Source: Draconibacterium sp.
GTDB taxonomy: Bacteria; Bacteroidota; Bacteroidia; Bacteroidales; Prolixibacteraceae
Direction: 5' to 3'
Length of the DNA stretch: 64,000 nt
Assembly: GCA_011620585.1 (NCBI GenBank)
Contig: WOYV01000040.1
Location: forward strand, 51,581-115,580
Below the pieces are notes generated by a model that was given only the letters and a program-made list of their open reading frames with translations, did no database searches and was not told the origin of the DNA. The position numbers and the translations under genes are program-made. Position 1 is the stretch's first letter, and each line of letters opens with the position of its first letter. Positions 43,526 through 63,785 of the stretch are shown piece after piece.

Positions 43526-43527
43526 CT

Positions 43528-43600: not shown

Positions 43601-43959
43601 TTCCAATGGCTTTTAACATACTCAATGAATGTATTGATTTTCATTCCCAAAATACCATATTCATTTAGCAGCTCTATTAAACCGTTCGATTCAAAATGAA
43701 TTTCATTGATCATTGTCAATTGTGAAATCGCTTCATCACACGATGAATGAGAATAAACGAGAAATCTGATAAATTCATTATTATACCTGTTTCTGCCATA
43801 TACTTCAACAATGTTATCCTTAATACTTTTTGTTGACCCGCGAAGCTGGCTACCTTGTTCATACGTTTCGTAAGAAGGAAGGGTGAATGTCATCTTATGA
43901 ACCTGAACTGCCAGATTGTAGGACAACTGATATATTTCAAGATCCCGATAACTTTTCAT
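43579..43959 (-). CDS. Four helix bundle protein (23S rRNA intervening-sequence protein family)
   Basis: YRDLEIYQLSYNLAVQVHKMTFTLPSYETYEQGSQLRGSTKSIKDNIVEVYGR. Confidence 0.9.
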   Translation of the reverse strand: MKSYRDLEIYQLSYNLAVQVHKMTFTLPSYETYEQGSQLRGSTKSIKDNIVEVYGRNRYNNEFIRFLVYSHSSCDEAISQLTMINEIHFESNGLIELLNEYGILGMKINTFIEYVKSHWNEPNRNL

Positions 43960-44012
43960 ATTCTTTTCATTTATTCAAAACATTCTTTAACACGAACCGT
44001 GCAACGCGCAAC

Positions 44013-46355
44013 TCATTTCACGTCAATTGCATCCACCGGGCAAGCTGCCCGACACGCGTCGCACTTGATACACAATTCGGTATCGATGCTGTGTTTTTCG
44101 TGCGGTGTGAACGGGATCGCATCTACCGGGCACTTTTGCACGCATTTGGTACAACCGATACAATTATCGTTTACCGAATATTTAATCAGGTGGCTGCATT
44201 TCCCGGTTGGGCAAACCCCGTTGATGTGAGCTTCGTATTCGTCTCTGAAATATTTCAATGTGCTCAAAACCGGGTTCGGCGCTGTTCTTCCCAGCCCGCA
44301 TAAACTCCCTTTTGCGGTCCACTCTGCTAATTTTTCGAGTTCTTGAATATCTCCCTGCTTGCCTTTTCCACTGGTAATGTTTTCCAGAATATCCAGCATT
44401 CTTCGGGTTCCAACTCTACAGAAGGTACATTTACCGCATGATTCTTCCTGTGTGAACGACAAGAAATATCGTGCAATATCCACCATGCAATCGGTTTCGT
44501 CGAGTACCACCAAACCACCGGAGCCCATCATTGCCCCCATTTCCTGTAGCGACTCGAAATTGATCGGTGTATCGGCAAATTCTGCCGGGATGCACCCACC
44601 GGAAGGGCCGCCTATCTGAACAGCCTTGAACTTTTTACCATTTGCAATTCCCCCGCCGATTTCTTCGATTACTTCGCGGATGGTGATTCCCATAGGAACT
44701 TCGATCAATCCGCCCCGAGCCACTTTTCCGGCCAATGCAAACACCTTGGTTCCTGTGCTGCGAGCTGTTCCAATCTCTGCGAATTTCTCCCAGCCTTCTC
44801 TTAAAATATATGCAATTTGTGCAAACGTTTCGGTGTTGTTCACCAGCGTTGGTTTTCCAAACAAGCCACTTTCGGCTGGAAACGGCGGCCTGATTCTCGG
44901 GAAGCCACGGTTACCCTCAATCGAAGCGATCAGCGCAGTTTCTTCTCCACAAACAAAAGCGCCTGCCCCTTCGTAAATCTGAAAGTCGAGATCGAATCCG
45001 GTTCCCAAAATATTTTTGCCAAGCAGATTATTTTCATGACAGATCTTCAAAGCTTCGCGAATACGTTTTACCGCCAGCGGATATTCCGCCCGAATGTAGA
45101 AATATCCGTGATGAATGCCGGTTGCGTAAGCTGCTATTGTCATTCCTTCGATAATACGGTACGGATAAGATTCAAGCAACATGCGATCCATGAATGCGCC
45201 GGGGTCACCCTCGTCGCCATTACAAATCAGGTATTTCACCTCGCTGTTTTGTTTACGTACCGCTTCCCATTTTATACCGGTGGGAAAACCGCCACCACCA
45301 CGACCGCGAATGCCGCTTTGTTTTATCTGATCGACAACTTCCTGCGGTGAGTAACTTTCGAAAACTTTCTGTAATGCAGAAAATCCGCCGCGTTTCTTGT
45401 ATTCGTTGATGTCGAGTGGATTAATCATCCCGCGGTATTCAGTAGCGATTGGCAGCTGATTTCCAAGAAACGAAGCGACCGGTTTTTCGCGCATGCTGAT
45501 CTCGTAGCGTTCCACTCCTTCCCAGTTACGGTCGGTTTGGATGGTTTCCACTGTGTGCATCAGCTTATTTTTAAGCTTGGCAAACAAGCCCGGAGCCTGA
45601 AAATGTGATTCCACTATGTTCTTCACATCTTCGGGTTTTACCTTAGCGTACAGTGTTGGTTCGCCTTCGTTCGGAACTACTTCGACCAACGGGACCTGGT
45701 GACACATTCCCACACAACCCACGTGTTTTAAACTCACCCGCAAGCCACTTTCGTTTACCACCGCTTCTACTTCTTCCTGAATTTCTTTGCTCCCGCTGGC
45801 CACACAACACGATCCTAAACCAATTCGAATTTCACCCTGGAGCTGTGTTCCGTCTGCCTTCCGGGCTTTGCCCGTATCTTTTTTCCCTTTAATACTTTCG
45901 AAATCCTCGATAATCTGTTCTACCTGGTCGGATGCCACATGCCCATATGTTGTTCCATCGATCTGAACGACCGGGGCCAGCGTGCAACAACCGAGGCAAG
46001 CTACTTTTTCGATGGTATATTTTCCAGCTTCGTCGGTATTTATTCCCTCCTTTAGTTTTAATTCGCGACGAAAAGCATCATAAACCTGTACTGCTCCTTT
46101 TACATGACAGGCAGTACCAATGCACACTTTTATCATGTGTTCGCCCACCGGATGCAAACGGAATTGAGAATAAAAGCTGGCCACCCCAATGATCTCGGCT
46201 GAGGTAATTTCCGACCGGTCGGCCAGGTAACGCAAAGCATCTTCAGGCAGGTAGTTGTATTTTTTTTGAATGGACTGCAAAATAGGAATCAGGCTCTTTT
46301 TTGTCGAACCTTTTTCGGCAATCAGTTGATCGATATATGTGAAATATTCTGACAT
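44013..46355 (-). CDS. NuoE-NuoF fusion with extra 2Fe-2S thioredoxin-like domain and C-terminal 2[4Fe-4S] (HydB/HydC- or StnB/StnC-like)
   Basis: CIGTACHVKG...CLGCC; second CCVAS...CVGMC; GIRGRGGGGFPTGIKWE; NGDEGDPGAFMDR; ESCGKCTFCRVGTRR; CIGCTKCVQKCP...CIKCDACRAACP. Confidence 0.93.
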   Translation of the reverse strand: MSEYFTYIDQLIAEKGSTKKSLIPILQSIQKKYNYLPEDALRYLADRSEITSAEIIGVASFYSQFRLHPVGEHMIKVCIGTACHVKGAVQVYDAFRRELKLKEGINTDEAGKYTIEKVACLGCCTLAPVVQIDGTTYGHVASDQVEQIIEDFESIKGKKDTGKARKADGTQLQGEIRIGLGSCCVASGSKEIQEEVEAVVNESGLRVSLKHVGCVGMCHQVPLVEVVPNEGEPTLYAKVKPEDVKNIVESHFQAPGLFAKLKNKLMHTVETIQTDRNWEGVERYEISMREKPVASFLGNQLPIATEYRGMINPLDINEYKKRGGFSALQKVFESYSPQEVVDQIKQSGIRGRGGGGFPTGIKWEAVRKQNSEVKYLICNGDEGDPGAFMDRMLLESYPYRIIEGMTIAAYATGIHHGYFYIRAEYPLAVKRIREALKICHENNLLGKNILGTGFDLDFQIYEGAGAFVCGEETALIASIEGNRGFPRIRPPFPAESGLFGKPTLVNNTETFAQIAYILREGWEKFAEIGTARSTGTKVFALAGKVARGGLIEVPMGITIREVIEEIGGGIANGKKFKAVQIGGPSGGCIPAEFADTPINFESLQEMGAMMGSGGLVVLDETDCMVDIARYFLSFTQEESCGKCTFCRVGTRRMLDILENITSGKGKQGDIQELEKLAEWTAKGSLCGLGRTAPNPVLSTLKYFRDEYEAHINGVCPTGKCSHLIKYSVNDNCIGCTKCVQKCPVDAIPFTPHEKHSIDTELCIKCDACRAACPVDAIDVK

Positions 46356-46388: not shown

Positions 46389-48251
46389 TTATTTTCCAAT
46401 ACAATACAAATTATTTTCTCCACGAATGTAGATCCGGCCATCGGCAAAAGCAGGTGTTGGGCCTGAGTGTTCTCCCAAATTATTTTCACTTATTTTTTTC
46501 AACACTTTACCCATTTCATACACATGCATAACACCGTTGTTATCCATTATAAACAACTTGCCATCCGCAGTAACCGGCGAAGCATACAAGGTAGTGCCCA
46601 CATCATCTTCCCAATACATTTCTCCCGATCTAGTATCGTAACACGCAATTACTCCGTAACTGGTGCAAATAACCAATAACCCATTGTGCGCCAACGGACT
46701 TGATGCTTCGGGCAGGTATTCGTCGTTTTCCCAAACGGGGGAAGCTGTTTTCGGATCGATGGCAACGAGCCGGGCATATTCGTTGGCAGCAAAAACAAGT
46801 CCGTCGCCATAAGCAACCGATGGTCCAACTTCACCCATCATACACTCAACCTTCCAAAGTTCATCACCAGTTTCGGCATCGTAGCCGGCAACAATAGGAT
46901 CGGCGGTAAGTAAAACCTGGTATTTCCCGTTAATTTCGGCGAGAACCGGACTGGCCCATGATATTTTTGATTCGCGTTTTTTGTCCCAAATGGTTTCGCC
47001 TGTTCCGGTACTAAGAGCGAGTAACCGTCCTCCGCTATTCGTATCGTACTGAACATAGAGCTTTCCAGCCCAGGTAATCAAAGACGACGAGTGCCCGTAA
47101 TGATTGTTTGGAACACCCAGATTTCGTGCCCACAATCGTTTCCCGTTCATATCGAAAGCAATTACATCGCCATCGGCAAATATGGCGTACACCGCTTTTC
47201 CATCAGTTGTCGTAGTTGGAGCAGAGAGTCCTGTATCGGGCGATACTTTTGGCTGACTCGCTGGCGAACCTGAAATATTATTAGCCACACCAGTCCAAAG
47301 CAATTTTCCGGTATTTCTATCGAAACAATACACTTCACGGGCATTATTATCGGCACCGGCCACAAAAACTTTATCTCCCCAAATAATGGGCGAGTTGAAC
47401 CCCAATTTTGGGATCGGCACTTTCCACAGCACGTTGGTACCGGCAGCTCCGTCCCATTCGGTCGGGATGTTTTTAGCATAACTTGCCCCCTGTCCAAAAG
47501 GCCCACGGAAAGAATTATAATTGGCTTTAATTGTGGCCAATGTCAAACCTGTTGCTGATGTAGTTGTTTTTGGCTGAGGATTTGCCCCGGCCACGGCAAC
47601 AACATTTTCAGGAGATGTTCCTTCCTGTGGAACTTCGGCTACTATCTCCTCTTCGACATTTTCTTCAGCCGAAGTTTGGGTCTCTGATACATTTCCCGGA
47701 GTTTGTCCAACTTCGATGACTTCAATTCCCTCATCTTGCGGGGCAACTTCGTTCCCGGCCACCATATTATTTGTATCGTAATACTCCAAATGATTAACGG
47801 TAGCATAACTTGCCAATACCGCGAGCGCCATCACCACCCCCCCAACTATCATAATTCCCTTTTGAGCAAGAATCCGGCTTGCAATTTCATTTTCCAGTTT
47901 TTTATCGGGCGCTTCAATTTTACTTTTTGCCGAATAATAAATACGAAGTGCGAACGCTAAAACCACGGCGCCAAAAAGCATTAAGTATGCGCCGGTTTTC
48001 ACCTGCCACTGACTGTTGAAATATGCTTTACGCGCCAGCAGGTCGAAGTTACGAATCTCTGTTTTTAGCTCTTCGTTGTTGGGTTCCTGCTTCAACCGCT
48101 GGACCAGCGCTTCGAGAGCCTTGCTTTCGATGGGATCGCTTTTTGAAATCTGCCAGAAATTCAGCAACAAAAGTATCGCAACGGCGGTACAGAAAATTCC
48201 TGCAATCAGTGCGATGTTCTGTGAAATTTTTAGTTTATCGTTATTGGTCAT
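46389..48251 (-). CDS. Membrane-anchored PQQ-binding-like beta-propeller protein (propeller 2)
   Basis: Apparently three N-terminal TM segments, low-complexity linker, then FDRNTGKLLWTG, LSTGTGETIWDK, YDAETGDELWKVE blades. Confidence 0.9.
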   Translation of the reverse strand: MTNNDKLKISQNIALIAGIFCTAVAILLLLNFWQISKSDPIESKALEALVQRLKQEPNNEELKTEIRNFDLLARKAYFNSQWQVKTGAYLMLFGAVVLAFALRIYYSAKSKIEAPDKKLENEIASRILAQKGIMIVGGVVMALAVLASYATVNHLEYYDTNNMVAGNEVAPQDEGIEVIEVGQTPGNVSETQTSAEENVEEEIVAEVPQEGTSPENVVAVAGANPQPKTTTSATGLTLATIKANYNSFRGPFGQGASYAKNIPTEWDGAAGTNVLWKVPIPKLGFNSPIIWGDKVFVAGADNNAREVYCFDRNTGKLLWTGVANNISGSPASQPKVSPDTGLSAPTTTTDGKAVYAIFADGDVIAFDMNGKRLWARNLGVPNNHYGHSSSLITWAGKLYVQYDTNSGGRLLALSTGTGETIWDKKRESKISWASPVLAEINGKYQVLLTADPIVAGYDAETGDELWKVECMMGEVGPSVAYGDGLVFAANEYARLVAIDPKTASPVWENDEYLPEASSPLAHNGLLVICTSYGVIACYDTRSGEMYWEDDVGTTLYASPVTADGKLFIMDNNGVMHVYEMGKVLKKISENNLGEHSGPTPAFADGRIYIRGENNLYCIGK

Positions 48252-48355
48252 ATACTTAAGTTTGAAGTCGGAAGCAGGAAGCCGGAAGAAAGTTTCCGAA
48301 AGTTAGCTGCTCATCATTCTTTTATTTGTTTTTCAATCTAACAATTTTGCATTTT

Positions 48356-49618
48356 TTACTTCTCTACCGGACAATAATCCACACAGCGGGCACAACTCAA
48401 ACAGTTTCCTTTGTGTGGTTCATAATCCTGACGTTTTCTGAAAACCACAGTGTTAAGTAGGGTCATTCCAATTACCAGCCCCAGGAAACCCCCGGCAATC
48501 ATACTTCCTGTGTAAAATTTATCACGAATGGCTTCGGCTTCCAATACCAGTTCGTCCATCGATTCTCCTGAAGCCCGGAATGTTTGTACGTCAATATTGT
48601 CAAGGTCGTCTTTAATTTCAGGCTTCGAGATCATCAGTTCGGCCAGGTAAACCGTTGGATTGGCTTTTGACAGGAAGGTGTGTGAACGATTCCCGACAAA
48701 AACGCCAAGCGCCACCCACAGCGGAATGATCAGCGCGTAAGTCACAAAACGTTTGGGCCCGAGCCCCGATTTTACCACTTCTTTTTCGTTGGTTGGAAAA
48801 TCAATCGCATCGAACGGACACGATGTTGTACAAAGCTTGCACTGAATACATTTTGACGGGGTGATGGCGAGGTGCCATTTAGAAAAGCGGGACATCCAGC
48901 TAAGCAGTACTCCGTACGGACACAAAAACCGGCAGTAGGGACGGGCTACAAACATACCCATCAACAGGAAGGCAACTCCCAGCACGATCATATGAAATTT
49001 GGCGTCCATCCTGAAAATTCCGACAAAAGGATCGTAGCGGCAAATGATAAAATCGGTGCCTGTGGCAGCAAACAATACCGCCAGCGCCAGATATATGTAA
49101 GGAATGAGTCCTAATGTTTTATTCAGCCATTTTGGAAGACTGATGGGTTTCATAATTACCAAGTCCTGAATCGCCCCGAGCGGGCAGGCCCCGGCACAAA
49201 AAACTCTGCCAAAGAACAAAGCAAATAAAAGCGGCAGAAGAAAAAACAGTAGCGTGGTTATCGAAACAGAATAGCCTGGATCGAAAAAGGATAGTACCAT
49301 ATTCTGGATCGACCCGATGCTGCAAATACATCCGTTTCGGTAAAACCCAAAATATGCAAGGGTAAATATTGAAAGCCATAAAATTCCCTGACGGGAACGG
49401 CTTTTAAGTGCCAAATATGTTGCTGCTGAAAGAACAAGCAATAACACAAGAACATCGAAATATTCGAGCGCCAAAGCCCTGGGTTCAGGCGTTACAGGCG
49501 ATGGTTGCGTGTATCCGCTGTCGAATTCGGGTTTTGGGAAACGCTGTTGCTGTGCTGACAAGGCAAAAGTTGAAAGGAAAAAGGCAAAAGTAAATAATAC
49601 GAACTTTGCGTATTTCAT
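48356..49618 (-). CDS. NapH/NosR-like polytopic 4Fe-4S membrane protein
   Basis: Multiple TM segments; FCAGACPLGAIQDLV, YCRFLCPYGVLLS, CIQCKLCTTSCPFDAIDFP, CLSCARCVDYCP; start MKYAKFVLF at 49618. Confidence 0.88.
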   Translation of the reverse strand: MKYAKFVLFTFAFFLSTFALSAQQQRFPKPEFDSGYTQPSPVTPEPRALALEYFDVLVLLLVLSAATYLALKSRSRQGILWLSIFTLAYFGFYRNGCICSIGSIQNMVLSFFDPGYSVSITTLLFFLLPLLFALFFGRVFCAGACPLGAIQDLVIMKPISLPKWLNKTLGLIPYIYLALAVLFAATGTDFIICRYDPFVGIFRMDAKFHMIVLGVAFLLMGMFVARPYCRFLCPYGVLLSWMSRFSKWHLAITPSKCIQCKLCTTSCPFDAIDFPTNEKEVVKSGLGPKRFVTYALIIPLWVALGVFVGNRSHTFLSKANPTVYLAELMISKPEIKDDLDNIDVQTFRASGESMDELVLEAEAIRDKFYTGSMIAGGFLGLVIGMTLLNTVVFRKRQDYEPHKGNCLSCARCVDYCPVEK

Positions 49619-49755
49619 AACTGCAAGTTTACAGTCCCAGTTTTCAGTATTCATTTTCGATAACAGATTACTGTTTACTAAAGGCTTGTGGCTATTAGCT
49701 TGCAGCTTGTAGCTTGATTCTATGTTGGTTTTTTGGTTCATTGGTTTCAATCAAT

Positions 49756-50328
49756 CTAAGTTGGATTCGTCCAGCTCCCTTTTACTTTGTATGCCTCGCT
49801 GGCCTGCACGCGGCTGATGGCATCGGACGGGCAAACCCGCGCTATGGAACATTCGTTGCAATTCACGCAAAGGTGATGCATAATTTGCAGGTGTAACGAT
49901 CCGTTCCCAAACGATGTACATCCTTTCACACATTTGGCACAACCAATACAGAGGTCTTCGTTGATATGATATTCGAAATAGGGTTCTTCAATAAATTTGC
50001 GTTCGATGGCAGCGGTAGGGCACAACTGGTTTTCGGCAGCCGTGCTTCGGGCGTTGGCATCGGGTTTCAGATATCCACCACACAAATCGCAGTAGCCACA
50101 CAAATCGAAAGCATGAATACATTTTACGGCCGACGGCGTCATCACGCACTCGGTGGCACAACGTCCGCACTGCGTACATTTAAAAGGATCGATTTGCCAA
50201 ACATAACCGTCGGTGGTTACCTTGCGCAATGCAGCCGCACTTACGGCCCCGAGCGATAAAAGCAAAGACAATCTCGCCCCGTTCCGGATGAATTTGCGTC
50301 GGCTTTGTGCTTTATTTTTCTTTTCCAT
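49756..50328 (-). CDS. NapG-like 4Fe-4S protein with twin-arginine-like signal
   Basis: SRRKFIRNGARLSLLLSLG; CTQCGRCATEC, CIGCAKCVKGC, CVNCNECSIARVCP. Confidence 0.88.
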   Translation of the reverse strand: MEKKNKAQSRRKFIRNGARLSLLLSLGAVSAAALRKVTTDGYVWQIDPFKCTQCGRCATECVMTPSAVKCIHAFDLCGYCDLCGGYLKPDANARSTAAENQLCPTAAIERKFIEEPYFEYHINEDLCIGCAKCVKGCTSFGNGSLHLQIMHHLCVNCNECSIARVCPSDAISRVQASEAYKVKGSWTNPT

Positions 50329-50335
50329 TTTTTGT

Positions 50336-50509
50336 CTACTCCGCCTGTGGTAATTGACACAATTCAAATTTCCCGCAATTTTTACATGTTGGTGATATCG
50401 AGCAGGTAGTTGTTACTTTTTTGTTCGCTACAAGGTAACCCGATGTAGCTGCCAGGCCGCCAAGTAATAGCAACCTGGCTCCGGTTTGTATAAATTTTTT
50501 GCGGTTCAT
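50336..50509 (-). CDS. 57-aa exported protein with four cysteines
   Basis: MNRKKFIQTGARLLLLGGLAATSGYLVANKKVTTTCSISPTCKNCGKFELCQLPQAE; N-terminus resembles the downstream NapG-like signal. Confidence 0.6.
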   Translation of the reverse strand: MNRKKFIQTGARLLLLGGLAATSGYLVANKKVTTTCSISPTCKNCGKFELCQLPQAE

Positions 50510-50563
50510 AATTTTAAGTTGGAAGACAGAAGCCCGAAGCATGGGGCCCAATCCTCCTTTTAT

Positions 50564-51529
50564 TTAGTTTTTCTCAAATACTCTCAGTACTTTACGATCA
50601 AAATCGAGTGCGTAAATATTTCCTTTATTATCGACTGCCACATCGGGCGCCTGGCCTTCAATTTTATCGTCGAATTTTGTTGGAGGCGCCACCACCCCGA
50701 GAAACTCGCCCGATGATTTGTATATTTTTATACGCACCAGGCCCTTTTCGCTGGTTACAAAACTCCCATCTTCCAAAAAACAGAAATGTGCCGGGTTACA
50801 GCAACCACTAAAATTCTCGGTTTGTGCGCCACTTGCCTGCCAGTGTTCGCGCAGGTTTCCGTTGTCGGTGTATTGTTCAAGTGAATGGATTCCAGGGTTT
50901 ACCGCCCACAAGTCGCCGTATTCGTTTACATCGATGTCGAAGTATGGACTTGGAATAATAAAACCATGCAGATCATCCGCATCGGCCTTTCCTTCGAAAG
51001 AATCAAGCAGATTTCCATTTTTTGTATAACGAAGGATTTTTCGGTTACCAGCATCGGCCACAAAAACAAAATCTTCTTTTCCGGAAATAGCAGTTACATA
51101 GGTATTTTCGCCTTCTATATTCCATTCATCCTGAATTTCTCCTGCTCTATTCAATACTTTCACAGACTTCCCGAATGCAAGATAAATATTCTCCCCTTCC
51201 ACTTCCACAGTGGTAGGTTTGTCTTGAAAATCGATTTCAAGCAGGAGTTGTCCGTCAATATCGATCGCTTTTAATTTCTGATCGCCAACCAAATAAATTG
51301 TGTCGCCTGAACTGGTAATGCCGGCCGGATTTTCGAATCCAACCCTGAAATTCTTAACTTCTTTGAAGAGTATTAATTCTTCAGGAACCTTTCGGAATTC
51401 TTCAATATTGTACTCAAATTTATTGGCCTCCATCCTGTCGGGACGTTTCGAGTACCAGTCGCCCACCATTACCGCAATGATAACGACAGCCAGTACAATT
51501 AAAAATATGACGATTCCTTTGTTTTTCAT
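50564..51529 (-). CDS. NHL/6-bladed beta-propeller protein with N-terminal TM anchor
   Basis: IFLIVLAVVIIAVMVGDW anchor; VFVADAGNRKILRYTKNGNLLDSF, DVAVDNKGNIYALDFDRKVLRVFEKN. Confidence 0.85.
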   Translation of the reverse strand: MKNKGIVIFLIVLAVVIIAVMVGDWYSKRPDRMEANKFEYNIEEFRKVPEELILFKEVKNFRVGFENPAGITSSGDTIYLVGDQKLKAIDIDGQLLLEIDFQDKPTTVEVEGENIYLAFGKSVKVLNRAGEIQDEWNIEGENTYVTAISGKEDFVFVADAGNRKILRYTKNGNLLDSFEGKADADDLHGFIIPSPYFDIDVNEYGDLWAVNPGIHSLEQYTDNGNLREHWQASGAQTENFSGCCNPAHFCFLEDGSFVTSEKGLVRIKIYKSSGEFLGVVAPPTKFDDKIEGQAPDVAVDNKGNIYALDFDRKVLRVFEKN

Positions 51530-51532
51530 TTC

Positions 51533-52954
51533 TCAAATGTTTAAGTCGATACACACCATTTTTTTCGAATCGCGCATAATCAGGTAACCATCGGCCAGTG
51601 CAAAAGGCGCCCAGGCATCGTGTGCGTCTTCAAAAACTTTAACCTGGTCGAGCAGAATAAATTCTTTTGTACCCGGGCGGGCTATAGTAAGTGTTGCATC
51701 ATCGTTCAGGATAAACATTTTATTATCGGCAATAAAGTAAGGCCCAAGTCCGAAACGCATGTCTTTCCCGCTCGACCACACCATTTTTTTAGTATCCGAT
51801 GGATCAACACAAACCAACTGGTTTCGAAGTGCGCCACCATCTTTTGGCAGAATCCCAAACAGGCGCCCATTCCAGTACAGTGGAGTCTGTTGTTCGCAGG
51901 CCAGCCCATCTTTCGGACTGTACTCGTCGATAGCTTCCACACTAAACTGTCCGTTGTTTTCCGAAAGCTTTAACATCATACTTCCTGCACCGTAGCCGGC
52001 TGTCAGGAATATTTTTCCATCGGGCATACAAAGCGGCGATGGCGCTACCACCGAGTGATTCCAAGCGTTGGTCGACCAAAGGACCGAGCCTGCATCGGGA
52101 CCGTCGGCAGCGACACCAACAATACCTCCGATTGCACTATACACATACATTTTCCGTCCTCCAAAAGTATAAGGCATCACCGACGAATGCGACATCTGCC
52201 ATCCGTTTGGATTGGGTGTTTCCCACAGTTTTTCACCGCTTTCACAATCCACGGCCACCATCATTTTCGAGCCGCCTACCCCAAGGATAGCCACTCCGTT
52301 ATCGATGAGCGGGCACTGCCCGGTGTACCAGAATGGAATTTCATTCCCGTATTCTTTTACGATATCAAGTCCCCAACGGAAATTTCCATTCTCACGGTCG
52401 AGGCACATCACGTGGCATTTTGGACCAATGGTAAGAATATAATCTTCGGTTACCGCAGGAATGGTCCGCGACATTCCGTGGTTTCGTTTAACGGCTACAT
52501 CGTAACCACGGCTCCACTGTTCCTTGCCATCCACCAGTGAGAAGCAACGCAATTTATCCGCCCGTTCCTCTTCGTTATAGTCGAGAATATAAGCCAGACC
52601 TTTGTAAATAGCTGCACCCGAATGTCCTTCGCCCAAATCGAGCGACCACACAATTTTCGGTCCTTCGGCGCCGAATTTATCGATCAGTTTTACCGGCGAT
52701 TTGGAAATATTATCGTGATCGGCGCCACGGAAATTTGGCCAGGTTTCGTTCATTGGTTGATAATCCGAAGAATATTCCTCGAAAAGCTCGCCAATGGTTA
52801 CGTCCTGCGCAGCAACTCCGGCTCCTCTGTTATCAGCTCCCTCCAGGTTAACCGTCATATCTTTGGTTGGGTCGGCACTCAACCACCAGAAAATTGACAC
52901 CAAGGCAATGGTGCTGACTACTATCGGAATGATATTTAAAGTTTTTTTCGTCAA
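51533..52954 (-). CDS. PQQ-binding-like beta-propeller protein (propeller 3)
   Basis: N-terminal TM; WPNFRGADHDNISKSPV, LDRENGNFRWGLD, VDCESGEKLWETP. Confidence 0.9.
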   Translation of the reverse strand: MTKKTLNIIPIVVSTIALVSIFWWLSADPTKDMTVNLEGADNRGAGVAAQDVTIGELFEEYSSDYQPMNETWPNFRGADHDNISKSPVKLIDKFGAEGPKIVWSLDLGEGHSGAAIYKGLAYILDYNEEERADKLRCFSLVDGKEQWSRGYDVAVKRNHGMSRTIPAVTEDYILTIGPKCHVMCLDRENGNFRWGLDIVKEYGNEIPFWYTGQCPLIDNGVAILGVGGSKMMVAVDCESGEKLWETPNPNGWQMSHSSVMPYTFGGRKMYVYSAIGGIVGVAADGPDAGSVLWSTNAWNHSVVAPSPLCMPDGKIFLTAGYGAGSMMLKLSENNGQFSVEAIDEYSPKDGLACEQQTPLYWNGRLFGILPKDGGALRNQLVCVDPSDTKKMVWSSGKDMRFGLGPYFIADNKMFILNDDATLTIARPGTKEFILLDQVKVFEDAHDAWAPFALADGYLIMRDSKKMVCIDLNI

Positions 52955-52962
52955 GTTTTATT

Positions 52963-54210
52963 TCAATTTTCAGCTTTTATATCAAAAATTTTCAACACTT
53001 CTCCGTGGCGGATAAATAATTTCCCGTCGGCAATAAAAGGGTGCGCCCAATGCGGCCCGGCTCCTTCTGTAATTTTGAATTCGCTCACGATGGAGAAAGC
53101 ATCGGGCGCCGGTTTTACCAACGCCACACTGCCTCTTTCGTTATAAACGTAAAGCATGTCCTCAGCCATGACGAGTGATCCTTTCGATCCCCAGGTTTCA
53201 TTGAAACCAATCTCGCCGCTGTCCCAGTTCATACAGGTCCAGTTTCCTTTATTGTTGTTTTCCCAGTTGGCGCCGTACACATAGCCATTGTATAAAATCA
53301 GTCCACCGTGGTGATTATCCAAAGTGCTGTTCTTGTATTTTACCGAAACCGACTTTCCGTTTTCTGCCATTTTCAACATCACGGCTTCGTAATCGTAACC
53401 CATCGAAATAAAGATCTCATCGTTATGGAAGATTGGCGTGTTAATCCATATCAAACCATTGTCCTGCCATTTCCAGACTTCAGGATTGAAATACCTGTAA
53501 TGCCATGCAATTTCCCCTGTTTCGGGAACCAGCGCTAAAATATCGGTTCCGATTACGGCCAGGATATACCTGAAATTCTTGTATTCATAAATAGTGGCTG
53601 AAGCATAGGCACGTGCCCCTCCCAGCGATTCGCTTTCCCAAACGGGTTCGCCGGTCATTTTATTCAGCGCAATTACACTGGTTTTGCTTCCTCCGGGCGA
53701 ACAGATCAGTTTATCATCCACAATCAAGGGAGTTTCTGAGTTTCCCCAAACATGATACTCACTTTCATACTTTTTATCCACTTCAACCGCCCAATTTTCT
53801 TTGCCCGTTTCACGATCGATACAAACCACCCGTCCTGTACCACTCTGCACATAAATACGGTTGTCTTCGATTACCGGTGAACAGCGTGTGTCGGGATACG
53901 ACTGGTTCCAGGAGCGACCGTAAGGAACCTGCCACAAAATTTTTCCCTGCATATCGACTGCTGAAAGATAATCGAGTGTGTCGATCATTCCAGTGATATA
54001 AATTTTCCCATCGGCAAAAATCGGGGACGACCACCCTTTTCCCAGTTTATCGACTTGCAGAATTTGTTTTGGCCCCTCCGCCGGCCATTCTTTTAATAAA
54101 CCCTTTTCGGTGAATTGCCCGTCGCGGTGAGGCCCGCGCCACTGGACAAATTGAGCTTGCGCACTAAATAAAAAGCTAAATAAAATTACTGCAAGCAGTG
54201 ATGTTCTCAT
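52963..54210 (-). CDS. Secreted PQQ-binding-like beta-propeller protein (propeller 4)
   Basis: Signal peptide; FVQWRGPHRDGQFTEKGLLKEWPAEGP, IDRETGKENWAVE, LNKMTGEPVWESE. Confidence 0.9.
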   Translation of the reverse strand: MRTSLLAVILFSFLFSAQAQFVQWRGPHRDGQFTEKGLLKEWPAEGPKQILQVDKLGKGWSSPIFADGKIYITGMIDTLDYLSAVDMQGKILWQVPYGRSWNQSYPDTRCSPVIEDNRIYVQSGTGRVVCIDRETGKENWAVEVDKKYESEYHVWGNSETPLIVDDKLICSPGGSKTSVIALNKMTGEPVWESESLGGARAYASATIYEYKNFRYILAVIGTDILALVPETGEIAWHYRYFNPEVWKWQDNGLIWINTPIFHNDEIFISMGYDYEAVMLKMAENGKSVSVKYKNSTLDNHHGGLILYNGYVYGANWENNNKGNWTCMNWDSGEIGFNETWGSKGSLVMAEDMLYVYNERGSVALVKPAPDAFSIVSEFKITEGAGPHWAHPFIADGKLFIRHGEVLKIFDIKAEN

Positions 54211-56137: not shown

Positions 56138-57343
56138 TTATTTAATTTTATATGCTACCAGCGCATTGCCGTGATGTACAAATAAACGTCCGTTATCGAT
56201 TACCGGATGCGCCCAATGCTGGGCCGAACCAAGTTCAACTTTGGTTTTGCCGGTTACTTTAAATTCTTTTGGATCCGCCTTCACGAGTGCCAGTTCACCG
56301 CGTTCGCTGTAGCAATACAACATTCCTTCGTCGGCGATTGCCACACCTTTCCCGATTTCTGCGGCAGCATAGCTTTCCCCGCCTGTTTTCCAGTTCACAC
56401 ACCGCCATTCCCTGCTCACGTCACCCGAACCATAAAGATATCCGTCTATTAAAACCATTCCACCCATCCGGCTGTCCAATTCAGCTTTTTTCCAAAGTAG
56501 CTGAACACTGCTTCCGTCCTCGCTCAGCTTCAACATTTCGCTACCTTGTCCCCAACCGCTAAAACAAAAAAGCCCGCCATCAGAATAGATGGGTGTATTG
56601 GCATGGACAGCCCACTGATTGGCATGTGGATACGACCACAATAATTTTCCGTTTTTGGCGTCCAGTCCGATAATGTGATTGGCAGTATGTGTAACCAATA
56701 AAGTACGCTCAGATAATTTCACCAGCGCTGGCGTGCAATACGCTGATAATTCCCCCACGCCGGGAGATGTCCAGATCAGCTCGCCGTTAAAACGATTCAA
56801 GGCAACCATGTTATTTTTCTTTCCTCCGGGGGTCAGATAAACAACATCGCCGTCAATCACTACTGTTTCGGTTACTCCCCACTGAATGTTTTTCCCATCA
56901 AAATCGGTGAACGCATTTTTCTTCCATTTTACACTGCCGTTGTTAGCATCCATGCACACCAGTTCTCCCAAACCACTGTACATATACATTAAACCGCCAG
57001 CCACCACTACTGATGAGCGTGCACCCGGGTAACTTTCGGTGAATTCCTTTCCGTAGTTTGCCTTCCATTTTAGCTTTCCATCCTGCGAAAGCACAAAAAT
57101 GTAACCTTCACCGTCGATCATGGTAGAAATATAAATCTGATTGTTGGCGAATGTTGGTGACGAATGTCCTTCGCCGAGCCCCTCAAAACTCCAGAGGATC
57201 TCGGGTCCGCCGGCGGGCCATTGTTTTAACAGTCCGGTTTCATGATAATTCCCATTATCCCCGCCCCTCCAAACGGTTGGCTCCTGAGCGTATAAAATGG
57301 GTGCGGAAATACATATAACGAGCGCTGTAATTAGTGTTTTCAT
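56138..57343 (-). CDS. Secreted PQQ-binding-like beta-propeller protein (propeller 5)
   Basis: Signal peptide MKTLITALVICISAPILYAQ; VWRGGDNGNYHETGLLKQWPAGGP, LDAKNGKLLWSYP; paralogous to propeller 4. Confidence 0.9.
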   Translation of the reverse strand: MKTLITALVICISAPILYAQEPTVWRGGDNGNYHETGLLKQWPAGGPEILWSFEGLGEGHSSPTFANNQIYISTMIDGEGYIFVLSQDGKLKWKANYGKEFTESYPGARSSVVVAGGLMYMYSGLGELVCMDANNGSVKWKKNAFTDFDGKNIQWGVTETVVIDGDVVYLTPGGKKNNMVALNRFNGELIWTSPGVGELSAYCTPALVKLSERTLLVTHTANHIIGLDAKNGKLLWSYPHANQWAVHANTPIYSDGGLFCFSGWGQGSEMLKLSEDGSSVQLLWKKAELDSRMGGMVLIDGYLYGSGDVSREWRCVNWKTGGESYAAAEIGKGVAIADEGMLYCYSERGELALVKADPKEFKVTGKTKVELGSAQHWAHPVIDNGRLFVHHGNALVAYKIK

Positions 57344-57500
57344 AGTCATGACTTTATCGTAATTTTTGGCTTTTAAAAATAGAATCAATTTGGCAGCTTG
57401 CCAACGCTGGCGCATAATTTATCATCGCTCTAAACAAGCCAATCCAATGCCTGCTGATGTGGATAAATTAAGAAATCTGAAACGTTAAATAAAGTTTCTA

Positions 57501-59282
57501 CTAATCAAGATATTTACGAACTGCTTCGAGATAAGCTGTGAGTGGATACATTTTTTCGTCGTACCACAGCGAAGCAAAATATAAACCAATTGGCGCCGAT
57601 GGCAATCCACTTTGCTGAAAGGTTTGGCCAAGCCAGTTGAACCCATTCCGGCAAACTTCTGAATGCCTTGTTTTTACCAATGCTGCCACTGCAAGGGCAG
57701 TTTCTTCCATGGTGCCGGAAATGTTTTTTGCCCCACCCCAGCTTCCATCTTCGTTTTGAGTCTCCACCAAATATTGTTCAGCTTTTACGATCATTAAACC
57801 GATTTTATTCAGAAGATTTTCATCTTGCAGAAAGGGGAGGGAATCCTGTAGATAATTGAGTACGCGCGCTGTTCCGTACACAGGGTTATCATGTTTCTCT
57901 ACTTGCTGGTTACCGAACCAAAGTGGCAACCACGAGCCATCCTTTTTCTGATGTTTTGCCAGAAAATGAACGGCACGAAAGATAGACCGGTATAATTTTT
58001 TCTGAAATACAATATTTTCAGCGGTAAAATTATTTGCAACGTTAGCGAGTGCCAGCACACAATGTCCGGTTAAATCGGCACAACTCTGATCGAACGGAAG
58101 TTTGCCCCAGCCTTTTGAAAAAGTTGGAAAACCTCCATCTGGGTTTTGAATTTGAAACAGCCAATTAGCCCCGGCAAGAATCTCTGCCCTAATCTTTCCG
58201 GGAGAATTTAGTTGTAGTAAAGCCAGCATTGCGCCGGGTGTATCGTCGCAATCGGGAACCGATCCCGGGTAATTGGTCCAGCCCCAGCCACCGGGCGAAG
58301 TTCCGTTAAACGGATGGATCTCCTTATTTTGAATTGCAAGGAAATGCCTGCTTAACTTCTCATTCTGGTTGTGATCCAGTACAATATCCAGTCGATTCCC
58401 GAGCGCTTTTATACTCAAGCTACTCACCCAGGTCGAAAGATCGACATCGATTGGCCAACCACCGTCGTTGCGCTGCGTCCTTTTCAGGAACCCGGTCCCT
58501 TTTTCCACCACATCCATGTTCCGGTAACCGGCGTTAATTAAACTCAATACAACAAAAGCGGTTAGCGGTATGGCTTCGAGAAAACCGCCGCTTTCGGGCA
58601 TTGATTTTTGTAATATTTTCAGGGCCCGTTTTTCAGCACCCTTTCTGATCCAACGGGAAAATTTTCCTGATTCTTTCTTTTTGAAAATGACAATCCCCAC
58701 CGCAATCAACGCCGGGATAGCATAACTGACCACACTCAAATTCAGCAAACGGTAAAACTTTTGCGGAAGCAAGGACAATTCAAAAGGTAGCTGTGGGATT
58801 TTTTGAAATGCTTTTTCCCCGGGAATTCCACACAAAGCGCTCATTGTCAATATTGGAACCGAAAAAGTGTAGTCCTTTTTGTAATGGGCTAAAATTGTGC
58901 CTGCAACATCGCCGCCCGATAAATCAATACTATTGGATTGAAGATAACCAGTCAGCGTGTTTTGAAGTTTCAGGATTTTTTCGTTTTCAGCCGAATAAAG
59001 ATTCAAGGCTGCATAAACCAGAAGCGAGGTGGAAATATTTGAAGGACTTTCCGGCGTATCGCCAAAACCACCATCAGGATTACTATTTTTCGTCAACCAT
59101 TCGAGCCCCTTTTCAATTTCGCTACGGTTTTCTTCTTTATTATGAAAATGGAGTGCTGTTACAGCCACGGCTACTCCAAGTGCGCTTGAAGACAAATGCC
59201 CGGTCCAGAACCCTTCAGGGTTCATCTCTTGAACCAGAATGTCGCTCAACTCTTTAAACCGTATTTCAAGTTCTTTCCTCAT
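57501..59282 (-). CDS. Squalene-hopene cyclase-like class II terpene cyclase family protein
   Basis: Repeated QW-like motifs (NPDGGFGDTP, RNDGGWPIDV, QNPDGGFPTFSKGWGKLPFDQSCADLTGH, QNEDGSWGG) and VPDCDDTPGAMLALLQL (DxDDT). Confidence 0.82.
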   Translation of the reverse strand: MRKELEIRFKELSDILVQEMNPEGFWTGHLSSSALGVAVAVTALHFHNKEENRSEIEKGLEWLTKNSNPDGGFGDTPESPSNISTSLLVYAALNLYSAENEKILKLQNTLTGYLQSNSIDLSGGDVAGTILAHYKKDYTFSVPILTMSALCGIPGEKAFQKIPQLPFELSLLPQKFYRLLNLSVVSYAIPALIAVGIVIFKKKESGKFSRWIRKGAEKRALKILQKSMPESGGFLEAIPLTAFVVLSLINAGYRNMDVVEKGTGFLKRTQRNDGGWPIDVDLSTWVSSLSIKALGNRLDIVLDHNQNEKLSRHFLAIQNKEIHPFNGTSPGGWGWTNYPGSVPDCDDTPGAMLALLQLNSPGKIRAEILAGANWLFQIQNPDGGFPTFSKGWGKLPFDQSCADLTGHCVLALANVANNFTAENIVFQKKLYRSIFRAVHFLAKHQKKDGSWLPLWFGNQQVEKHDNPVYGTARVLNYLQDSLPFLQDENLLNKIGLMIVKAEQYLVETQNEDGSWGGAKNISGTMEETALAVAALVKTRHSEVCRNGFNWLGQTFQQSGLPSAPIGLYFASLWYDEKMYPLTAYLEAVRKYLD

Positions 59283-59301
59283 TAATCCTTTATCCTGTTT
59301 C

Positions 59302-60138
59302 TTAATTTTTTACAAGGCTTCCCAGCGCTAACAAACCATAAAAAGTATATTCCAGGTCCCGTGTTTCATCCCCATCGCCCGAAAGAAAAGCGCCGTTACT
59401 GTAATTTTGTTGTATAAACCCAAGGTTAGCCGGCTTAAGTAAACGCAGATCGGTTTTGGTTTCCGCCAGGGCAAAAAGTGCAACTCCGGTCGAGAGCATG
59501 TCTCCGTTTTTCACAGGCTGAAAAGCCTTAAACCCTCCGCTTTTCAACGAGAATTCATAAAGCCGGGCTTGTGCTTTTCCGAATCTCAACCCCAGTTTTT
59601 TGCGTGCAAAAACAAACGCAGCCTGCAAACTACAAGGAAAATCGTTTTTTGTCCGGTAGAAAAGTAAAGCGATCCGGGCCAAAAAATAATACAGGCTTTT
59701 AGATTTTCCCACAGCATCTGCAACAAGCGTAAATAAAAAAAACCGGTATGATAAGTGGATGTTTTTCCCCTGCCTGAAAAGTAGCATGAGCAAACCAGGG
59801 ATCGATTGTTTACCAGTTGTTTCATCCAAATCCGAACGGATGAGTGTCAGCGCCATTTGTTCGACGACACCCAGTTTTTGGGGATTTTGTTTTTCGATGA
59901 ATGACTGTAAGCTTGCGAGTATGGAGCTTTGTCCGGTAGCCTGTGCCAGCCACGAGCCAAAAAGTGAATAGTACAAATCGGGAAAGGCAGCACGATCGAT
60001 AAAGCCGCCACCCGGTTCCTGCGATTCTTTTAAAAAAGAAACGATTTCCTCCTGTGTTTGCCGATCAAGAATTTCAAACCCGCTCTTCAAATAACTGATC
60101 AGCAACCGGTGTACCGGGATATTCTTTTCAATTGGCAT
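59302..60138 (-). CDS. Second terpenoid-cyclase/prenyltransferase alpha-toroid-like protein
   Basis: FLKESQEPGGGFIDRAAFPDLYYSLFGSWLAQATGQ, KSGGFKAFQPVKNGDMLSTGVALFALAETK, FIQQNYSNGAFLSGDGDETRDLEYTFYGLLALG. Confidence 0.65.
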   Translation of the reverse strand: MPIEKNIPVHRLLISYLKSGFEILDRQTQEEIVSFLKESQEPGGGFIDRAAFPDLYYSLFGSWLAQATGQSSILASLQSFIEKQNPQKLGVVEQMALTLIRSDLDETTGKQSIPGLLMLLFRQGKNIHLSYRFFLFTLVADAVGKSKSLYYFLARIALLFYRTKNDFPCSLQAAFVFARKKLGLRFGKAQARLYEFSLKSGGFKAFQPVKNGDMLSTGVALFALAETKTDLRLLKPANLGFIQQNYSNGAFLSGDGDETRDLEYTFYGLLALGSLVKN

Positions 60139-61690
60139 CGGCGGTTAACGGTTTGAAAATTTTCCCTAACACACCATATAAACTTAGCCTCAAACGTTCG
60201 TTGTTTAATTTATCCAGTTCGGCATAACAACTTTCAATATATTCATTTAAGATATGCCGGGCGCGTTTGTCAAGCTGCTTTTCAACAATTCTATCCCTAA
60301 AAATTTTCAGATCGTTTACTTTCTCTTTTTCTTCGGAATTGAGGAGCGCCACAAGAATTGGATAGTCCTCTATTTTTTCATCCACGCGGTCTTCGTTGAA
60401 TTCATTCAGATCGTCGCGGATTTGATACGAGATCCCAAAATAATCGGCGAAGTTCTCGAGTATTTTTATTTCCGATTCTTCCGCTTCACCCAAAATAGCC
60501 CCAAGCAACAAAGCCACTTTTATGGCTTCACCCGTTTTTAGTTGAAAGATTTTTAAAGTCTCGTCCAATCCCGGAATATTTTCGCCCGAATGGAAAAGAA
60601 TATCGGCGCCCTGCCCGCGAGTTAACTGTAAGTGCGAGTTGGAAACTCCCCGTAAAGCACGCGCAATCAGTTTTCCATCTACCGGCAAATCCGACAGCAA
60701 CTGGTAACCTTTCCCAATCAGGTAATCGCCGGCATTAATTGCTTGTGGGACACCGTATTTTTTATGAGCCGTCTCAGTATCATACCGAAAATTGGCATCA
60801 TCCTCAATATCGTCGTGAATGAGTGATGCTTTATGAAAGCATTCAATTATTAGTGAAAGCGAATATAAAACTTCAGAATTCACTTCCTTCGCGTAAGCCT
60901 GGTAACTCAACGCGGCAATCAACGGACGTATGCGCTGTCCTCCCAGTTGCAAATATTCCCTGCCAAGTTTTTCAGTTTTGTCCTTTTCCTGAAAATATTT
61001 ATCGAGTGTGCCATTGGCAAAAAATTCATTCAACTGGCCTTTCAAATTACTCGCCGGTAAGGGCTGCAAGCTATTGTTTGCCTTGAATGCACGTAATTCA
61101 TCGTACAACCACCTGGTATCGATTTTTGTGTTCTCGCATCCGTCGTACATTAACGGGAGCCCGATCACAGGCACTGCCGCGTTTTTTACTGCGTCGAACG
61201 AACGCTGAAGCACGGGCATGCAGCTCACTCCAATCACCGCATCAACCGCGCCCTCTTCCACCAGGCCAATGGCCACCGTAGTTCCTTCTGCTACCAAGGT
61301 AGAATAACCAAGTTTTTCAGCTTCATTCAGAATATCGTCGATCGGGCAAGCCTTGCAACCTGCACAAATCAATCCCAATTCATCGAAATCGGCCTGACAA
61401 CTGGTGGTATCTTTCAAACATTGGGGAAGCAACAGCAAGCGACGATTAAATGGTGTGGCTTCTACTGTTTTGCGCCAGGTTTCGTTGCCAATTAAAACAA
61501 TGGCAAAGTCGATGTATTCATCCGAAATCGCCAGTTCTTTTAACAGATCGATCGCCAGTTGTTCCATTACCTCAAAAGATGCAGGAGGCCGTAACCCGGC
61601 CTTGTTGACAAGCAGCCCTATTTCCTTGCGCAGTTTGTTGCGCAGGAACGATTCCTTTGGAACTTTTAATATGCGTTTCGTTCTGTTCAT
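60128..61690 (-). CDS. DUF116-like domain fused to polyprenyl diphosphate synthase
   Basis: N-terminal RLLLLPQCLKDTTSCQADFDELGLICAGCKACPIDDI and VIGVSCMPVLQRS; C-terminal LIHDDIEDDANFR (first Asp-rich motif) and QIRDDLNEFNED (second). Confidence 0.85.
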   Translation of the reverse strand: MNRTKRILKVPKESFLRNKLRKEIGLLVNKAGLRPPASFEVMEQLAIDLLKELAISDEYIDFAIVLIGNETWRKTVEATPFNRRLLLLPQCLKDTTSCQADFDELGLICAGCKACPIDDILNEAEKLGYSTLVAEGTTVAIGLVEEGAVDAVIGVSCMPVLQRSFDAVKNAAVPVIGLPLMYDGCENTKIDTRWLYDELRAFKANNSLQPLPASNLKGQLNEFFANGTLDKYFQEKDKTEKLGREYLQLGGQRIRPLIAALSYQAYAKEVNSEVLYSLSLIIECFHKASLIHDDIEDDANFRYDTETAHKKYGVPQAINAGDYLIGKGYQLLSDLPVDGKLIARALRGVSNSHLQLTRGQGADILFHSGENIPGLDETLKIFQLKTGEAIKVALLLGAILGEAEESEIKILENFADYFGISYQIRDDLNEFNEDRVDEKIEDYPILVALLNSEEKEKVNDLKIFRDRIVEKQLDKRARHILNEYIESCYAELDKLNNERLRLSLYGVLGKIFKPLTADAN

Positions 61691-61693
61691 TCT

Positions 61694-62869
61694 TTATCCA
61701 TAAGCGCCAAGGCCAAAAAAAGCGTGTTTCTTAGCAAAACGATAGGCCCAGCTTTTTTCGCGAACCGGTTCTGCTGAACCATGACTGGATATCGGCTCCA
61801 TTTCTTTCAAACGTGCTGCTTCGTTACCCCGTCCCGATGAATCCCGCGCCTCGTGTTTTTCTACATGGCCAACTAACCATTGTGGATTATCCATAACAAC
61901 ACAACCGCTTGTAAGTTTTGGTATATCGGTTTTAAATTCGGCCAGAAATTTCGAATTTTTATAAATATCCTGCAAATTTCCATCCCCCACATTATCCGTG
62001 GCAAACTGAATAACCGGGCAGGGCTCGATATCACCCGATGCATTTATATGATGACTTAATCCCGAAGCAGCCGGGCAAAGCCCTTTTCCATTCTCGTCCC
62101 AGTAAGCATCGATTATGGCAATTTTGTATTTCGTCCTGGCCTCTACCAGGAAATTTCGTACCTCTTGTATTTCTTCTTTTGACAGCGCTAATTCTACAGT
62201 GGCATCTTTTCCAACCGGCCGGTAAATATAGTACCACAGATATAAAACGCCCCGTTCGGCCAATGAGTTTATGAATTTTTCGGAAAAAGCGAGGTCGATA
62301 TTCGATTTACAAATGCTCATGGCAACACCAGTAATCAGTCCGGCTTTGGTGGAATGATCGATGGCGGCCTGTGCTTTTTGATATACATTCAGCCCTCCAC
62401 GTCGTATGTCGGCCACCTGCTCGTCGCCTTCGAAACTGATAAGTGGGGTAACATTACCCAGTTTACGCAGTTGTTCCGCCACCGGTTCGCTTAACAATGT
62501 TCCGTTGGTAAAAAGCTGGAAATAACAGTCGGAATGTTTTTTGAAAACCTCAAACAAAGGTTTATACATTAAAGGTTCACCCCCCAAAATTCCAAAAAAG
62601 TAAGATCCTTTTTCTTTTGATTGGGTGATAATCTTATCCAGCATTTCGGGCGACATTCGCGCGTTTTTCTTCTTGCCGGTTACCCAGCAGCCCTGGCAAT
62701 TCAGGTTGCAATCGTCGGTTACCGATATAAAATGAAAGGCCGGGAAGAACTCTCCTTTTTTCAGCCGCTTTTGAAAGCGATTTAACCCGATGGCCCCTTT
62801 AATGCCCATGTTGTACACAAATTTGTACAAACACTTTTTATCTGTATTTACCAGAAGTTGTTTTATCAT
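61694..62869 (-). CDS. Radical SAM protein
   Basis: SVTDDCNLNCQGCWVTG (CxxxCxxC), FGILGGEPLMYKPLF, SPASM-like CPAASGLSHHINASGDIEPCPV. Confidence 0.9.
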   Translation of the reverse strand: MIKQLLVNTDKKCLYKFVYNMGIKGAIGLNRFQKRLKKGEFFPAFHFISVTDDCNLNCQGCWVTGKKKNARMSPEMLDKIITQSKEKGSYFFGILGGEPLMYKPLFEVFKKHSDCYFQLFTNGTLLSEPVAEQLRKLGNVTPLISFEGDEQVADIRRGGLNVYQKAQAAIDHSTKAGLITGVAMSICKSNIDLAFSEKFINSLAERGVLYLWYYIYRPVGKDATVELALSKEEIQEVRNFLVEARTKYKIAIIDAYWDENGKGLCPAASGLSHHINASGDIEPCPVIQFATDNVGDGNLQDIYKNSKFLAEFKTDIPKLTSGCVVMDNPQWLVGHVEKHEARDSSGRGNEAARLKEMEPISSHGSAEPVREKSWAYRFAKKHAFFGLGAYG

Positions 62870-63636
62870 TTTTTTTCTCCTGCTCTTTTTTTCAATTCTT
62901 CGATGGCTTTGCGCTTTTCATCTTCGGCAAGCTGCACCATATCCTGTTTAAAAATGTTCCTGCGGCTGCTATTCCGTTCGTTTAGCATCACAAATAAACC
63001 ACCCTGGCCAGTTGTTGCGGTTTTGGTTTCATTAGTTCCGGGTTCGGCCCCACTGAGTACCGAATTTTCTTTTAAACGCGGGAAAATAATCGCTGAAGTT
63101 GCACAGGTTCTTCCACATGCAGGACAATTATTTTTGCAATTTAACGGCTCTACCACTTCGAGACTTTTCTTGCTGAATTTGTAGACTCCAAAAACGCAGA
63201 AACGGGCACATTTCGCGCAATAAATACAACGCGATTCGTCGATAACAGGATACCAGGCCGGAACTTCCAGGCTGTTTTTTATAACCGTGTAAGTGGAATT
63301 ACCAGTGTCTTCTGTTATTTCTGCATCGATCTCACTTCCAAGCTCTTCAGGATTTTTTTCACGAAAGTTTACCACCTCGTAATTTTCCATCTCAATTTTA
63401 TTCTGACGGAACATATTTGCGATGGCACGTGGATAGCAGGCAATGATCGTTTTCTGCTCGTAATGAGCATTAATTTCGGCCAGCTTTTCCTTTTCGTTAA
63501 GTGTAAATGCACACAGATCGTGCAGTTCTACCACATCGGTGTTAGACTTCTGCATCAACAGGGTAATATCGTTCTGTTTTTGTTCAGAAATAATTCCGGC
63601 TGAGCAACGACAATATACCAGGACTTTCTTTTTCAT
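62866..63636 (-). CDS. 4Fe-4S ferredoxin-type protein
   Basis: VYCRCSAGI; CIYCAKCARFCVFGVYKF; CKNNCPACGRTCA; ATG overlap with the radical SAM gene. Confidence 0.82.
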   Translation of the reverse strand: MKKKVLVYCRCSAGIISEQKQNDITLLMQKSNTDVVELHDLCAFTLNEKEKLAEINAHYEQKTIIACYPRAIANMFRQNKIEMENYEVVNFREKNPEELGSEIDAEITEDTGNSTYTVIKNSLEVPAWYPVIDESRCIYCAKCARFCVFGVYKFSKKSLEVVEPLNCKNNCPACGRTCATSAIIFPRLKENSVLSGAEPGTNETKTATTGQGGLFVMLNERNSSRRNIFKQDMVQLAEDEKRKAIEELKKRAGEKK

Positions 63637-63785
63637 GTTTAAAATTCTCTGTTTCCACATTCAACCACAATTCATCCTCCAATTTTCTGACAGACGCATT
63701 TTTTTAAAGGGAAGCTAATTAAGTGAAATTCTGTTCAAACTAAAAATATTCGGGTTAAATAAAGGTTTCAACGGGTTGAAAAAGC

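Follow-up and report, generated by a model that had tools for sequence, protein, structure and literature searches.

A Candidate Operon for Squalene-Independent Synthesis of a Polycyclic Isoprenoid Lipid in Draconibacterium and Relatives in Other Phyla

The polycyclic isoprenoids of membranes are mainly hopanoids and sterols, which serve as molecular fossils. The sesquarterpene pathway of Bacillus proceeds from heptaprenyl diphosphate by way of YtpB and SqhC and involves no squalene. Here we describe five adjacent genes of a Draconibacterium species (Bacteroidota; GenBank assembly GCA_011620585.1, 3.9 Mb in 132 contigs) that place a prenyl diphosphate synthase beside a candidate cyclase of the squalene-hopene cyclase (SHC) family and a group of iron-sulfur (Fe-S) proteins. 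Judging from the sequences, we think it fairly probable that these genes form an operon whose enzymes synthesize a polycyclic isoprenoid lipid by a route that bypasses squalene. The stretch analyzed (64,000 nucleotides, hereafter the window) is the end of contig C84; the contig ends with the window, and the view upstream of the first gene, fer, is 340 bp. The five genes are as follows:

62866..63660, minus strand: HdrA_N-like Fe-S domain fused to a 2[4Fe-4S] ferredoxin (fer), 264 amino acids; assigned by its cysteine pattern and two clusters
61694..62869, minus strand: radical S-adenosylmethionine (SAM) protein (rSAM) with SPASM-like C-terminal cysteines, 391 amino acids; Radical_SAM match (5e-16) and invariant cysteines
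60128..61690, minus strand: DUF116 fused to a polyprenyl diphosphate synthase (DUF116-PPS), 520 amino acids; Pfam matches and invariant motifs
59302..60138, minus strand: single alpha-alpha toroid protein, 278 amino acids; predicted model and profile matches
57501..59282, minus strand: putative class II (SHC-type) polyprenoid cyclase, 593 amino acids; motifs, predicted model and Foldseek

The genes fer and rSAM overlap by 4 bp, a 3-bp gap separates rSAM from DUF116-PPS, the latter overlaps the toroid gene by 11 bp and the cyclase gene begins after another 19 bp. An earlier reading of the sequence (the first-pass annotation) had named these five genes and their domains and called them tightly packed. 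The genes are there with those domains, all on the minus strand, and each gene indeed overlaps the next or lies less than 20 bp from it.

The synthase, the cyclase and their partners

Both halves of DUF116-PPS are recognized by Pfam within one protein (polyprenyl_synt, 1.3e-42; DUF116, 1.5e-33). The synthase motifs DDIED, RxRP and KT are invariant and the second aspartate-rich motif reads DDxx[DE] or NDLxD; two aspartate-rich motifs together with RxRP and KT are characteristic of E-type isoprenyl diphosphate synthases. The DUF116 half has seven invariant cysteines (C91, C98, C109, C112, C115, C157 and C185). The host genome encodes three prenyl synthases, of which this is one. Five residues before the first motif it has Ala, as does the presumed long-chain synthase of the host (L115), whereas the presumed short-chain synthase (L114) has Phe.

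The cyclase matches both SHC domains (SQHop_cyclase_C, 5.5e-32; SQHop_cyclase_N, 5.2e-23). Its acid motif (D344-x-D346-D347-T348) and H407 are invariant in all 39 sequences, as are W285, W335, F388, F397, W455, F569 and W573, while Y469 is kept in 36. Its AlphaFold model (predicted local distance difference test, pLDDT, 91.4) has as best solved match the Alicyclobacillus SHC (1sqc; E-value 5.7e-20, template-modeling [TM] score 0.75). In Alicyclobacillus numbering, with the 1gsz alignment as a guide, most cavity aromatics have an aromatic counterpart in the window cyclase: W169 (Y187), Y267 (F243), W312 (W285), F365 (W335), Y420 (F388), F434 (F397), W489 (W455), Y495 (Y469), F601 (F569) and F605 (W573). 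A conserved segment (LPFELxxLP...VVSYAxPALIAxG) aligns with the membrane region of SHC. The DxDD(T) motif and the modeled two-barrel fold with an aromatic cavity place the protein in the class II terpene cyclase superfamily, which includes SHC and oxidosqualene cyclases. A noncatalytic toroid, of the thioester-domain (TED) or complement type, was considered for this protein and rejected because the acid motif is invariant; for the 278-amino-acid toroid protein such a nature is conceivable.

By its sequence, however, the window cyclase is not a hopene cyclase. In an alignment with eight true hopene cyclases drawn from carrier genomes the mean identity is 22.6%, compared with 46.4% inside the cluster family and 49.9% among the SHCs, and the window cyclase scores far under the cut-off of the hopene-cyclase equivalog TIGR01507 (90.9 versus 431 bits).

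In rSAM, C54, C58 and C61 form the CxxxCxxC cluster motif of the radical SAM superfamily and, like C265, C284 and C323, are invariant in 29 sequences; the protein scores far under the HpnH cut-off (40.2 versus 225 bits). Orthologues are unlinked, elsewhere in the genome, in four Planctomycetota (G101, G106, G108, G109), and none was found in G110 (2.9 Mb). At four loci (L050, 8296-9954; L064; L073; L079) a B12-type radical SAM protein fills the operon slot, and the genomes of L050, L064 and L073 gave no match to the usual one. The unlinked orthologues and the replacements suggest that radical SAM chemistry is part of the pathway. Maturation of a ribosomally synthesized and post-translationally modified peptide (RiPP) by this SPASM-like protein was rejected, there being neither room for nor sign of a conserved small open reading frame in the core. 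A check for defence functions returned only generic viperin-like matches to rSAM.

The fer protein has Cys17, Cys19, Cys50 and Cys75 as in the HdrA N-terminus (a weak profile match) and two nearly invariant CxxCxxCxxxC-type [4Fe-4S] clusters. Profile searches of the PDB match it to HdrA subunits, weakly so in the N-terminal part, and from these features it is probably an electron donor.

The toroid model is confident (pLDDT 92.5), all-helical and toroid-type, and has no strong neighbor among solved structures. Pfam gives a weak Prenyltrans match (0.006); the nearest profile match is the RabGGTase beta subunit (6e-11) and another is SHC (4e-5); to the cyclase of its own cluster the protein bears only a remote resemblance. 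It has no DxDD motif; D54, D213, D261 and E263 are invariant. Of the zinc-binding Asp, Cys and His, compared by eye over diverged repeats, Asp is kept, and Cys and His were not found in the conserved columns.

Co-conservation across phyla

Do these genes belong together? A scan of the genome collection with DUF116-PPS as query gave 246 relatives, the best 80 of which were taken as loci; iterated profiles of six proteins were run against their open frames, and gene content was counted in the 47 loci with enough flank. All five families are present in 32 of the 47, and in 22 they keep the order fer-rSAM-PPS-toroid-SHC on one strand within a span of 5.8-6.9 kb. Taken singly, the ferredoxin homologue occurs in 43 loci and rSAM in 38. 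The carriers belong to the Bacteroidota, Planctomycetota, Verrucomicrobiota, Lentisphaerota, Acidobacteriota and Spirochaetota, and include named strains of Maribellus, Sunxiuqinia and Mangrovibacterium as well as Planctomycetes bacterium Pan216; two metagenome-assembled genomes (MAGs) labeled "Alphaproteobacteria" (L047) and "Kuenenia" (L110) are probably misbinned. Given this co-conservation over phyla, the five-gene arrangement is not due to chance.

Among 61 related genomes the presence patterns of synthase and cyclase are identical (both in 31, neither in 30), and 197 other Bacteroidota taken as a sample yielded neither, which limits the operon to a narrow group inside the phylum. The nearest relatives of the cluster are in Draconibacterium and Maribellus (Prolixibacteraceae). 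Three loci of the same genus (L122-L124) consist of the bare five genes flanked by unrelated neighbors, the gene preceding fer being unrelated and different in each, and thereby define the extent of the core. When pairwise distances are compared among the five proteins, they correlate (r 0.71-0.92; as high in 0 of 500 permutations), to which shared species history contributes. Placement in the trees of cyclase and synthase is similar: in both, a branch with 100/100 support sets the Bacteroidota and the Spirochaete apart; in the synthase tree this group also contains L047.

Several variants of the cluster were seen. In the Planctomycetaceae loci L093 and L110 the order is (gcvH-)fer-rSAM-SHC-PPS with a flavoprotein gene between, and the toroid gene is found next to a thioesterase-like gene about 5 kb downstream. 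Loci L124 (9370-10061) and L038 have small genes between the toroid and cyclase genes, and the inserted pair in L124 resembles a helix-turn-helix/toxin-antitoxin pair. In one complete genome the cyclase gene (G006:C1:1298949-1300729) is broken up into two frames that overlap, which may reflect a frameshift or decay.

Substrate, proposed pathway and alternatives

What would the cyclase act on? The family PF00494, to which phytoene synthase, squalene synthase and HpnC/HpnD belong, is missing from 11 of the 31 carrier relatives; eight of these 11 are 96-100% complete (including the single-contig G008 and G032). It is likewise missing from 22 of 50 other carriers, among which MAGs are frequent. 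Since it is missing in eight near-complete carriers, squalene made by known routes is not an obligate substrate. The single PF00494 gene of the host lies inside a carotenoid cluster on contig C107, and a role of the five genes in the carotenoid pathway was rejected because that cluster is elsewhere. An engineered F605W exchange in the Alicyclobacillus SHC gives better tricyclization of geranylgeraniol (PMC11165016); the natural Trp at this position, where the alignment is gapped, is a weak hint of a non-squalene substrate.

In the operon that we propose, the synthase domain of DUF116-PPS would make a dedicated linear prenyl diphosphate. The SHC-type enzyme, through an aspartate of its DxDD motif, would donate a proton to the terminal double bond of its substrate, a long hydrophobic polyprenyl chain, and close several rings in an aromatic-lined cavity entered from the membrane. 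The sequences support these steps, and with them a functional link between prenyl diphosphate synthase and class II polycyclase. Between the two steps the diphosphate may be removed, reduced or transferred, most likely by the Cys-rich DUF116 domain (with a presumed Fe-S center) and the toroid partner. After or before cyclization, the lipid might acquire a C-C or C-X bond through the radical SAM enzyme, to which the HdrA_N-like/ferredoxin protein would supply electrons. We infer the membrane-lipid nature of the product, its chain length, the order of the steps and what DUF116, toroid and rSAM contribute. It is tempting to go further and suggest, though tentatively, an as yet undescribed class of polycyclic isoprenoid membrane lipids, made in at least six phyla from a non-squalene precursor by a DUF116 Fe-S step, cyclization and radical SAM tailoring, with neither squalene nor O2; this would be a third route next to those of hopanoids and sterols.

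The first-pass annotation had seen in this locus a prenyl-diphosphate maker and a class II cyclase candidate, a reading now supported by the synthase motifs, the acid motif, the fold and the co-conservation. The DCDD acid and hydrophobic cavity expected of such a cyclase are found as an invariant motif and, in the modeled SHC fold, as retained cavity aromatics; across six phyla the five families are found together and in synteny, with matching synthase and cyclase patterns in the 61 relatives. Its view that the set is neither hpn nor carotenoid also stands, as the equivalog cut-offs are failed and squalene is not an obligate precursor.

Several findings weigh against the proposed pathway. Drimenyl and copalyl diphosphate synthases are also good fold matches of the cyclase, so that a diphosphate substrate is conceivable. 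The cavity position F129 is occupied by a nonaromatic residue (V126), and the C-terminal alignment is gapped at SHC Y609, which makes the F601 and F605 equivalences less sure. The toroid has no recognizable catalytic motif, and there are synthase loci without cyclase or toroid in the flank (cyclase in 39 of 47, toroid in 38).

Could the cyclase act directly on a prenyl diphosphate (C20-C35), like copalyl or drimenyl diphosphate synthases, with the Fe-S proteins merely tailoring the product? Foldseek matches to drimenyl (1e-16) and copalyl diphosphate synthases, and the operon shared by synthase and cyclase, would agree with this; we nevertheless consider it unlikely, as SHC is the closest relative in both fold and sequence, the membrane-channel-like segment suits a neutral lipid and the fusion of DUF116 to the synthase would be left unexplained. 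Still less probable is that toroid and synthase attach the prenyl chain to some other molecule (protein, quinone, nucleoside or head group) and that this conjugate is the cyclase substrate, as prenylated benzoates are for MstE: the zinc ligands of protein prenyltransferases are not seen in the toroid and no acceptor gene or small peptide is conserved in the tightly packed core, against which stand the RabGGTase-like profile of the toroid and the presence of MstE among the cyclase fold matches. Membership in a diverged hopanoid pathway, with the SHC making hopene from squalene and rSAM as an HpnH-like adenosyl transferase, fits the SHC family of the cyclase, the weak HpnH match and the squalene-synthesis-family genes of many Planctomycetota and Acidobacteriota carriers, but is very improbable and was rejected on the widely failed cut-offs and the carriers without squalene synthase, and 10 of the 16 genomes tested hold a true hopene cyclase in addition to the cluster enzyme.

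Neighboring genes and comparison with described systems

Beyond the cyclase gene the window contains a propeller and, farther on, a second block with homologues beside the core elsewhere:

56138..57415, minus strand: PQQ-type beta-propeller, accessory neighbor outside the core (Pfam PQQ_2, 7.2e-27)
46389..54210, minus strand: second block, with propellers at 52963-54210, 51533-52954 and 46389-48251
50564-51529, minus strand: NHL protein of the second block
49756-50367, minus strand: twin-arginine translocation (Tat)-type Fe-S protein of the second block
48356-49750, minus strand: NapH-like polyferredoxin of the second block

The propeller had been noted as following the set directly. It does so, 85 bp beyond the SHC-like gene, but as a core gene it was rejected: propellers are near the core in only 11 of 47 loci and the gene is absent in L122-L124. 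Homologues of the second block lie beside the core in L034 (Bacteroidota), L050 (Planctomycetota), L067 (Spirochaetota) and L098/L099 (Lentisphaerota), and the block may be a linked membrane electron chain. Next to it (41978-46355, minus strand) we read from the sequence a 780-amino-acid NuoE/NuoF-like fusion with ferredoxin domains and a 530-amino-acid NuoG/GltD-like Fe-S protein.

Clusters of the Acidobacteriota and of the Planctomycetota-Verrucomicrobiota-Chlamydiota (PVC) group add a GcvH-like protein, a CobW-type GTPase and a cysteine desulfurase, each in 21 loci; the lipoyl-type Lys of the GcvH-like protein is invariant (21/21), and in these clusters the HdrA_N-like domain often stands alone as a small protein. 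The added lipoyl carrier, GTPase and desulfurase fit an Fe-S- and redox-heavy chemistry. On contig C20 of the host (L120, 5851-10511) two membrane-anchored GcvH-like proteins, one fused to a periplasmic binding-like domain, flank an NrfD/Fe-S pair in an unusual lipoyl-like respiratory cluster. As counterparts of the PVC lipoyl gene they were rejected, no link being seen.

How does the five-gene set compare with described systems? In the sHdr-LbpA lipoyl system (PMC6067878), too, a GcvH-like carrier with a conserved Lys stands beside HdrA-like and radical SAM genes; here, however, HdrB/C are not seen, the set is tied to isoprenoid enzymes and the lipoyl gene is found only in PVC/Acidobacteriota-type clusters. 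MstE and the drimenyl and copalyl diphosphate synthases share proton-initiated class II cyclization with a DxDD motif, but are farther from the window cyclase than SHC in sequence and fold and have other gene contexts. The Alicyclobacillus SHC shares the fold, DxDDT, a D447/H451-like pair and most cavity aromatics, and differs in its low identity (20%), the Trp residues of the window cyclase at the F365 and F605 positions, an insertion before the YGT motif and the loss of the Y609 region.

The hopanoid pathway (hpnCDE, shc/hpnF, hpnH) likewise combines an SHC-family class II cyclase with a radical SAM enzyme, but the five-gene operon needs no HpnC/D/E or other squalene synthase, and hpn has no counterpart of DUF116-PPS, the toroid or the HdrA_N-ferredoxin. 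The Bacillus sesquarterpene pathway also supplies an SHC homologue from a dedicated long prenyl diphosphate; in the place of YtpB stand here the Fe-S proteins and the toroid, and no YtpB-like (DUF2600) gene is among the annotated operon genes, the rest of the genome not having been searched. No earlier description of the gene set was found in the literature searched, which excludes subscription papers, where the cyclase clade may be mentioned. Every part is from a known superfamily; the combination, the squalene independence and the spread are without counterpart in that literature. If the proposed pathway is correct, it would give the orphan DUF116 family its first pathway context and reveal an unrecognized lipid family in phyla common in soils and sediments, possibly an overlooked source of biomarkers.

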